Shown piece after piece: positions 15,079 to 31,552 of a DNA stretch of 64,000 nt (its first letter is position 1; every line of letters begins with the position of its first letter). The notes under the pieces are model-generated. The model did no database searches, had not been told where the DNA came from, and saw nothing but the letters and a program-made list of their open reading frames with translations. Made by a program: the position numbers and the translations under genes. The stretch is from the NCBI GenBank assembly GCA_018820275.1, contig JAHJOO010000017.1, positions 17,961-81,960 on the forward strand, read 5' to 3'. The stretch is from Alphaproteobacteria bacterium. GTDB taxonomy: Bacteria > Pseudomonadota > Alphaproteobacteria > Caulobacterales > Caulobacteraceae.

Positions 15079-15092
15079 TGTAACCGATTACA
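15079..15092. promoter_or_regulatory. Putative LacI-family operator TGTAACCGATTACA
   Basis: Near-perfect palindrome with central CG, 106 bp upstream of the lacI-type gene; matching site at 31539. Confidence 0.75.
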
Positions 15093-15198
15093 CATTCGGT
15101 GCGGACGGACCTCGTGAAGGGGCCGGGACCGGGCCGGGGCAGGGAGAGAGCGTCGTGGGCACAGCCCCGTCACACGATCAGGCGCGCGGAGCGACGGC

Positions 15199-16263
15199 GT
15201 GAAGCCGGCGAACATCCGCGACGTCGCGCAGCGCGCCGAGGTTTCGGTCGCGTCCGTGTCGCGCGTGCTGAACGGGGCGGGGCCCGTCACCGACGTCACC
15301 CGCAAGAAGGTCATGGAGGCCGTCGAGGCCCTGCAGTACGTGCCCCATTCCGGCGCGCGCAGCCTGTCGACCAGCCGCAGCCAGACCGTCGGCGTGATCC
15401 TGCCGGACCTGTACGGCGAGTTCTTCTCCGAACTGATCCGCGGCATCGACCTGGCGGCGCGCGAGCGCGGCTATCACCTGATCGTCTCCAGTTCCCACGA
15501 CGACGCCGGCGAGGCCGCGGCGGCCGTGCGCTCCATGCGCGGCCGCGTCGACGGCCTGATCCTCATGTCTCCGCACGCGGCGGTGGGGCAGGCGGCGGCG
15601 GGCGTGACCGGCGGCCTGCCGGTGGTGCGGCTCAACGACGGCGCCGCCGAGGCGGATCGTCCGGCCATCGTCGTCGACAACCACGGCGGCGCCGTCGCGG
15701 CGGTGAAACATCTGATTGCGCTGGGCCGCAGCCGGATCGCCCATATCGCGGGCCCGAACGACAACATGGAGGCCGAGGCGCGTCTGTCCGGCTATCTGGA
15801 AGCCATGGCCGAGGCCGGGCTCGACGCGCGCGTGATCGAGGGCGACTTCGACATGGCGTCGGGCCGTCGCGCCGGTCTGGAGATGGCTCGGAGCGGCGAT
15901 TCGGTCGACGCGGTCTTCGCCGGCAACGACATGATGGCGCTGGGCGTCATGCTGGCGCTCCAGGACGCCGGCCGGCTCTGTCCGGAAGACGTCGCCGTCG
16001 TCGGCTTCGACGACGTGCCGCTGGCGTCGCTGGTCCGGCCGGGCCTGACCACGCTTCGTATCGACATCGCCGAGATCGGCCGCAGCGCGCTGGTGCGCCT
16101 GCTGGCGGCGATCGACGGCCAGCAGGACACCGGACGCCAGATCGTCCGGCCCGAACTCGTGATCCGCGGCTCCACTTCGGACCCGGACGCGCAGAGACCG
16201 ACGACGGACGGGCGGCCGTCGTTCGCCACCACTACCGCTCAGGGGGACAAACAGGATGTCTAG
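15199..16263 (+). CDS. LacI-family transcriptional regulator
   Basis: NIRDVAQRAEVSVASVSRVLNGAGPVTDVTRKKVMEAVEALQYVPHSGARSL: LacI HTH and hinge. Confidence 0.96.
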   Translation: MKPANIRDVAQRAEVSVASVSRVLNGAGPVTDVTRKKVMEAVEALQYVPHSGARSLSTSRSQTVGVILPDLYGEFFSELIRGIDLAARERGYHLIVSSSHDDAGEAAAAVRSMRGRVDGLILMSPHAAVGQAAAGVTGGLPVVRLNDGAAEADRPAIVVDNHGGAVAAVKHLIALGRSRIAHIAGPNDNMEAEARLSGYLEAMAEAGLDARVIEGDFDMASGRRAGLEMARSGDSVDAVFAGNDMMALGVMLALQDAGRLCPEDVAVVGFDDVPLASLVRPGLTTLRIDIAEIGRSALVRLLAAIDGQQDTGRQIVRPELVIRGSTSDPDAQRPTTDGRPSFATTTAQGDKQDV

Positions 16264-30415: not shown

Positions 30416-31501
30416 CTAAGCCCGCTCGAACGCCCGCCCGTCGGCGTCGAACAGCTGCACCTTCTCCGCGGGTGCCTTCAGCGTCAGGCTCTGCCCCTGC
30501 GTCGGGCGCTCGGCCCCGTCCAGCTGGGCCGTCAGCATCTCGCCGTCGCCGCCGTCCAGATAGGCATAGGTGGCGTGGCCCAGCGTCTCCACGAAGGTGG
30601 TCTTCGCCGTCAGGGCGCCGCCCGGCCCCTGGGTGGACAGGTGCTCGGGCCGCACGCCCAGGGTGACCTTGTCGCCGATCTTCGCGCCCGCCGCCTTCAC
30701 CGCCGCCGGCATGACCGCGCCGGTCGCCGTCCGCACCGTCACCTGGCCGCCGCCGGCCTCGATCACCTCGGCGGGGATCAGGTTCATCTTGGGGCTGCCG
30801 ATGAACTCGGCCACGAAGCGGTTGGCCGGGCGCTCGTACAGCTCCATCGGCTTGCCGACCTGCTCGATCCGGCCGGCGTTCAGCACCACGATCCGGTCGG
30901 CCAGGGTCATGGCCTCGACCTGGTCGTGGGTGACGTAGATCATGGTCGTGCCCAGCCGCTGGTGCAGGCCGGCGAACTCATAGCGCATGCGCACGCGCAA
31001 GGCGGCGTCGAGGTTGGACAGCGGCTCGTCGAACAGGAAGACCTCCGGCTCGCGCACGATGGCCCGGCCGATCGCCACGCGCTGGCGCTGCCCGCCCGAC
31101 AGGGCCTTGGGCTTGCGGTCCAGATAGTCGCCGATGTTCAGGATCCCGGCCGCCGCGTCGACCCGGCGCTTCACCTCGGCCTTGTCGACCTTCGCCAGCG
31201 ACAGGGCGAAGCCCATGTTCTCGCGCACCGTCATATGCGGGTAGAGGGCGTAGGACTGGAACACCATGGCGATGCCGCGGTCCGCGGGCGACAGACCGGT
31301 CACGTCGCGCCCGCCGATCGACACGGCACCGCCGTTCAGATCTTCCAGACCGGCGATGGTGCGCAGCAGGGTGGACTTGCCGCAGCCCGACGGCCCGACG
31401 AACACCACGAACTCGCCGTCGGCGATCTCCAGGTCGATGCCCTTCAGCACCTCGACGGCGCCGAAGCTCTTCCTCACGCCGCTCAGCCGAACGTCCGCCA
31501 T
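30416..31501 (-). CDS. Carbohydrate ABC transporter ATP-binding protein (MsmK/UgpC/MalK-type)
   Basis: Walker A GPSGCGKST, signature LSGGQRQRVAIGRA, Walker B EVFLFDEPLSNLDA, C-terminal TOBE region. Confidence 0.95.
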   Translation of the reverse strand: MADVRLSGVRKSFGAVEVLKGIDLEIADGEFVVFVGPSGCGKSTLLRTIAGLEDLNGGAVSIGGRDVTGLSPADRGIAMVFQSYALYPHMTVRENMGFALSLAKVDKAEVKRRVDAAAGILNIGDYLDRKPKALSGGQRQRVAIGRAIVREPEVFLFDEPLSNLDAALRVRMRYEFAGLHQRLGTTMIYVTHDQVEAMTLADRIVVLNAGRIEQVGKPMELYERPANRFVAEFIGSPKMNLIPAEVIEAGGGQVTVRTATGAVMPAAVKAAGAKIGDKVTLGVRPEHLSTQGPGGALTAKTTFVETLGHATYAYLDGGDGEMLTAQLDGAERPTQGQSLTLKAPAEKVQLFDADGRAFERA

Positions 31502-31538
31502 CCGTCTCCACCCACGCCGGTTTCTTCTTTGGCGTCAG

Positions 31539-31552
31539 CGTAAACGGTTACA
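31539..31552. promoter_or_regulatory. Putative LacI-family operator (minus strand TGTAACCGTTTACG)
   Basis: Matches TGTAACCGATTACA upstream of lacI at 12 of 14 positions; 38 bp upstream of the ABC ATPase start. Confidence 0.72.

Follow-up and report, generated by a model that had tools for sequence, protein, structure and literature searches.

Introduction

Beta-1,2-glucans serve many bacteria as factors of symbiosis, virulence and osmotic adaptation, and to our knowledge few routes for their uptake have been described. Here, we analyse a stretch of 64,000 nucleotides (the window) of contig JAHJOO010000017.1 from a member of the Caulobacteraceae, in which the gene cluster at positions 15079 to 31552 very probably encodes a system for beta-1,2-glucan catabolism under LacI repression, with putative outer-membrane receptors, a predicted exported glucanase, an ATP-binding cassette (ABC) importer and a predicted exported protein of 1071 amino acids. 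This reading builds on the parts of the cluster, its operators, its conservation and its kinship to assayed enzymes, all of which were read directly from the sequence.

The SusCD-type polysaccharide utilization loci of Bacteroidota couple TonB-driven uptake across the outer membrane to exported glycosidases. Our locus likewise combines TonB uptake with an exported glycosidase, but it employs an ABC importer and LacI control, and Pfam detected no SusD-like surface glycan-binding partner among its proteins. In Listeria innocua, lin1839-lin1841 includes an ABC-type sophorooligosaccharide-binding protein and a glycoside hydrolase family 3 (GH3) beta-glucosidase (PMC12369401); both types recur here, whereas the Listeria cluster is that of a Gram-positive bacterium and includes a GH94 phosphorylase, and our host lacks GH94 and has GH144 and TonB-dependent receptors. 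An ABC importer, a beta-1,2-glucanase homologue and a beta-glucosidase also stand together in SGR_2422-2427 of Streptomyces griseus (PMC12369401), where GH193 replaces GH144, a GH1 enzyme lies within the cluster and there is no outer-membrane receptor. The closest enzyme is XcSGL (XCC2207) of Xanthomonas campestris, a GH144 beta-1,2-glucanase by assay, whose complex with beta-1,2-glucoheptaose was described in 2025 (PMC12102758). The GH144 protein of our locus is 54% identical to it, and Xanthomonas-like genomes share the gene order; in X. campestris itself the neighbourhood of XcSGL includes XCC2208, a plug-less TonB receptor, whereas our locus has two tandem receptors, a convergent ATPase gene and a LacI-linked GH3 gene elsewhere in the genome. 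In the literature that we found, XcSGL is described as an enzyme, with no account of its cluster as a route of uptake. Importers of beta-1,2-glucan and gene clusters with SGL have precedents: for Listeria, use of the polymer at the level of the cluster is known, and for Streptomyces it has been proposed. The locus described here adds a proteobacterial version that joins TonB and ABC uptake, with a candidate new enzyme family.

The GH144 enzyme and the importer

The protein encoded at 22483..23913 (+) has as its best sequence match in the Protein Data Bank (PDB) chain 8XUL, which is XcSGL (495 bits over residues 35-473; the 54% identity was measured over 429 aligned residues), and also matches the endo-beta-1,2-glucanase 5GZH/5GZK (119 bits). 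Its score against PF10091 is 236 bits, compared with a curated cut-off of 27 (E 4.6e-70). The clan-defining residues E239, F286 and Y367 of XcSGL are retained as E215, F262 and Y348, and the pocket residue I453 as I432. Together with a Tat/lipobox-like N-terminus (signal peptides and lipoboxes of the locus proteins were judged by eye), these observations support the assignment of the protein as an exported GH144 endo-beta-1,2-glucanase. A preliminary description of this DNA, which had proposed beta-1,2-glucan rather than starch as the substrate, had named the family placement of this protein beforehand as a point on which its proposal could fail; the protein falls within GH144.

The sugar-binding lipoprotein (SBP) of the importer (23910..25175, +; PF13416, with a lipobox) is nearest, among solved chains, to 3UOR (436 bits) and to Lin1841 of Listeria (197 bits), the next solved relative scoring 126 bits. 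The ABC sugar-binding protein 3UOR, the Xanthomonas citri 'MalE', may itself bind beta-1,2-gluco-oligosaccharides. Among relatives with a defined ligand, the SBP is closest to Lin1841, which binds sophorooligosaccharides, that is, beta-1,2-gluco-oligosaccharides (PMC12369401), and this kinship points to the same ligand for the SBP.

The names MalE, MalF, MalG and 'putative glucoamylase' would imply a locus for the uptake of maltodextrin or starch, and the SBP and permeases do fall in the broad MalEFG class. We nevertheless reject this interpretation as extremely improbable: the PF10091 protein is GH144-like, no GH13 gene is present in the locus, as the preliminary description had already remarked, the SBP is nearest to Lin1841 and not to maltose binders, and the SBP and permeases score far below the cut-offs of the NCBIfam MalE, MalF and MalG models. 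Taken together, the kinship of the GH144 enzyme, the relatives of the SBP and the sub-threshold Mal scores favour beta-1,2-glucan over starch, in line with the earlier proposal. The natural glucan could be linear, cyclic, alpha-1,6-cyclized or substituted.

Conservation of the cluster

With the 1071-residue protein as query we retrieved 80 loci, from hosts that include Brevundimonas, Duganella, Massilia, Dokdonella, Pseudoxanthomonas, Glycocaulis and Sphingomonas. Sufficient upstream sequence was available for 65 of them, and among these the SBP, MalF and MalG genes were present in all 65, GH144 in 64, a TonB receptor in 62 and LacI in 61. The order LacI, TonB receptor, GH144, SBP, MalF, MalG, 1071-residue protein recurs in Brevundimonas, Duganella, Massilia, Dokdonella and Xanthomonas-like genomes. 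One genome group with this order from LacI to the 1071-residue protein presumably represents Xanthomonas or a close relative, because its GH144 protein is 90% identical to XcSGL. Across an even draw of 397 genomes from the phylum, the 1071-residue protein was found in 15 and GH144 in 43, with both in 14 (Fisher p 5e-14).

Operators and the LacI regulon

The outer limits of the locus in the preliminary description, 15079 and 31552, coincide with two LacI operators. The first, TGTAACCGATTACA (15079..15092), lies about 107 bp upstream of the start of the LacI-family regulator gene (15199..16263, +; PF00356/PF13377) and is kept at this place in nearly all loci of the relatives; the second, TGTAACCGTTTACG (31539..31552, -), lies 38 bp upstream of the gene for the UgpC/MsmK-type ATPase of the importer (30416..31501, -; NF008653, 483.5 bits against a cut-off of 432), a gene preceded by an operator in relatives too. 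The operator motif matches the window five times, both strands counted, against an expectation of 0.39, and none of 100 shuffles reached five. Genome-wide, the pattern TGTAACCGNTTACR has five exact sites, and the reversed control pattern has almost none. The genome encodes only two LacI proteins; the second is on contig C50, where no operator site was found. The presence of a palindromic operator upstream of both the regulator and its putative targets, retained in relatives, supports co-regulation; conserved sites at the locus, the ATPase gene and a GH3 gene on contig C41 lend support to the LacI control suggested earlier.

This GH3 beta-glucosidase, which has no obvious signal peptide, is preceded by one exact operator, and the same exact site stands upstream of all five of its orthologues of at least 75% identity and of three more distant GH3 genes. 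The GH3 enzyme would supply the cytoplasmic step that is absent from the locus. Another GH3 gene, within the window (40680-42965, -), was rejected as a member of the regulon, and the C41 gene preferred, because the window protein appears exported (a Tat-like signal by eye) and its gene has no operator. The two are 58% identical, and similarly distant GH3 genes elsewhere sometimes have the operator. A GH94 phosphorylase and a GH1 enzyme were likewise rejected for the cytoplasmic step, as neither family was found in the host genome. In 40 of the 80 relatives, the cluster itself includes a GH1 beta-glucosidase gene, often divergent from LacI across a common operator or directly 3' of the gene for the 1071-residue protein; assayed SGR_2426 was not identifiable by name among the best PDB matches of these proteins. 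The sets of genomes with the GH1 type and the GH3 type did not overlap among the genomes inspected, which, within this incomplete sampling, suggests non-orthologous replacement. The C41 GH3 gene is convergent with a GH10 gene (L092:3242-4342, -).

The two remaining sites bear on whether GH144 could be one activity among several in a system for a different beta-glucan, with beta-1,3 or mixed linkages, or for a glycan that is sulfated or otherwise substituted. One site lies 56 bp upstream of a sulfatase gene (contig C52, L093:6341-7846) whose product has an intact CLPSR active-site motif and, as its nearest solved relative, N-acetylglucosamine-6-sulfatase; all four of the genomes that have the gene share the operator. 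The other is 23 bp upstream of a gene for a lipoprotein of the endonuclease/exonuclease/phosphatase family (contig C61, L094:5284-6096), and recurs, with one mismatch, in only two other genomes, three in all. Such a different substrate is nonetheless quite improbable in our judgement, given that the sulfatase gene occurs in just 4 of 61 genomes of the genus and that in SGL clan Groups 1-3 the assayed members act specifically on beta-1,2-glucan (PMC12102758). The phosphatase-family protein was also downgraded from firm membership of the regulon, its closest orthologue (78% identical, in genome G017) lacking the operator.

The 1071-amino-acid protein

The gene at 26955..30170 (+) encodes a protein with a signal peptide, an N-terminal beta-rich domain, an F5/8C (CBM32-like) domain that matches glucanase and chitosanase modules, and a core that AlphaFold models as a beta-sandwich leading into an (alpha/alpha)6 barrel, with a predicted local distance difference test (pLDDT) score of 87.5 for the whole protein and 88.9 for the core alone. 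Foldseek relates the core model to GH94 and GH15 at a template-modelling (TM) score of about 0.55 and 11-15% identity. The preliminary description had called this a discoidin/six-hairpin protein. The rhamnosidase six-hairpin Pfam model matches weakly in 26 of 40 family members, and the protein stays below the cut-off of every catalytic family in Pfam and NCBIfam. The GH15-type model TIGR01577 scores 19.7 bits against a cut-off of 820.7 (E 2.7e-4), and a profile search of the PDB with the family returned carbohydrate-binding and similar beta domains only, with no catalytic relative.

A divergent paralogue (L217:12499-15606), which has an F5/8C domain, is 32% identical in the core and shares the invariant acidic residues E380, D655, E703, D705, E772, D784, D848, E898, E935 and D949; a halogenase-like gene follows it. 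In a Lysobacteraceae-type genome (G428), the divergent paralogue adjoins the GH144 cluster, with two operator-like sites between them. The 1071-residue protein is probably a glycosidase of no named family. Its predicted export makes a hydrolase likelier than a phosphorylase.

One tentative possibility is that the protein acts in the periplasm as an exo-acting beta-1,2-glucosidase or a sophorose-releasing hydrolase that finishes the products of GH144, a role suited to an exported protein so strictly linked to a beta-1,2-glucan importer. Such an enzyme would compete with the importer, and its identity to any solved relative is just 11-15%. Moreover, one genome (G297, L220) retains the genes from LacI through MalG, yet the 7 kb of sequence read beyond MalG contain no gene for the 1071-residue protein. 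The protein therefore looks accessory and dispensable to the core pathway.

It is rather unlikely, though worth weighing, that the enzyme instead cuts a bond other than beta-1,2, for example the alpha-1,6 closure of alpha-1,6-cyclized beta-1,2-glucans, by a GH15-like inverting mechanism. The best fold matches include a GH15-type dextran dextrinase and a glucodextranase, the weak TIGR01577 match is of the same type, and natural makers of such cyclized glucans are known in Xanthomonas, Ralstonia and Cereibacter (PMC11842490). Other (alpha/alpha)6 families give similar scores, however, and the weak Pfam matches lean towards the rhamnosidase six-hairpin model. Bolder still, and doubtful, is the twofold proposal that the protein founds a new GH family acting on a natural beta-1,2-glucan bond left by known enzymes, perhaps at a substituted unit or at an alpha-1,6 closure, and that the operator-linked sulfatase reveals some natural beta-1,2-glucans to be sulfated.

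A proposed route from outer membrane to cytoplasm

From these parts we infer the substrate, the direction of flow, the localisation and the induction of the system, as well as the role of the 1071-residue protein. The Oar-like TonB receptors would carry beta-1,2-glucan, cyclic or linear and derived from other bacteria, across the outer membrane, and the exported GH144 enzyme would cut it outside the cytoplasm to short beta-1,2-gluco-oligosaccharides (sophorooligosaccharides). The importer composed of the SBP, MalF, MalG and MsmK would bring these into the cytoplasm, where the LacI-controlled GH3 beta-glucosidase, or GH1 in many relatives, would release glucose. The 1071-residue protein would most likely serve as an exported GH94/GH15-like (alpha/alpha)6 glycosidase for something that GH144 and the importer cannot handle alone, and an oligosaccharide or sugar product would presumably free the operators of LacI. 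The locus had been described as possibly a complete outer- to inner-membrane system; the receptors, the GH144 enzyme and the ABC importer are indeed present, but the cytoplasmic beta-glucosidase is encoded outside the locus, on C41.

Several points weigh against the assignment to beta-1,2-glucan catabolism. The homologues of GH144 include an exo-acting, sophorose-releasing enzyme, and the exact product sizes are therefore not fixed by sequence; the C41 GH3 enzyme resembles general BglX-type beta-glucosidases more than it does Lin1840 or BT_3567; and the assembly comprises multiple contigs with 1.7% contamination, one of which (C48) is clearly foreign. The GC content of the contigs that bear the regulon agrees with that of the host. 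If the assignment to beta-1,2-glucan holds, the locus offers a testable outer-membrane-to-cytoplasm route for this polymer in Proteobacteria, and the 1071-residue protein points to a candidate glycosidase family whose gene neighbourhood gives clear guidance on substrates for assay.

Other features of the locus and the genome

The host genome is Brevundimonas-like (75 contigs, 2.82 Mb), and B. fluminis, strain LA-55 of which has the locus too, is closely related to it. An apparent second set of SBP, MalF, MalG and 1071-residue protein genes on C48 (L215, 6254 bp) was rejected as a paralogous copy: the contig is probably a contaminant, because its DNA identity to B. aurantiaca reaches 96.7%.

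Each gene named in the preliminary description, from LacI through the two receptors, the PF10091 enzyme, the SBP, the permeases and the 1071-residue F5/8C protein to the convergent ATPase, lies where it had been placed, with family assignments that agree with Pfam; most of these genes are also backed by a high GC content at third codon positions on the strand to which they are annotated. The Oar-like TonB-dependent receptors (16256..19261 and 19372..22386, both +; PF25183, PF13620 and PF00593 in each) are 62% identical to one another, and neither has a Pfam match to the canonical plug domain. The MalF-type (25172..26110, +) and MalG-type (26107..26934, +) permeases both match PF00528, and ATGA overlaps occur at each junction from the PF10091 gene through the SBP and MalF to MalG. 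The convergent intergenic region at 30171..30415 is strongly self-folding (fold z -6.1), and its structured inverted repeats are probably a repeat element or a bidirectional terminator.

Just upstream of LacI lies a carboxylesterase gene (13427-14986) without an operator of its own, the product of which could strip acyl substituents; its position is kept in several Brevundimonas, where other relatives have GH1. Beyond it, a PAS-containing histidine kinase (11844-13427, -) resembles LOV blue-light kinases.
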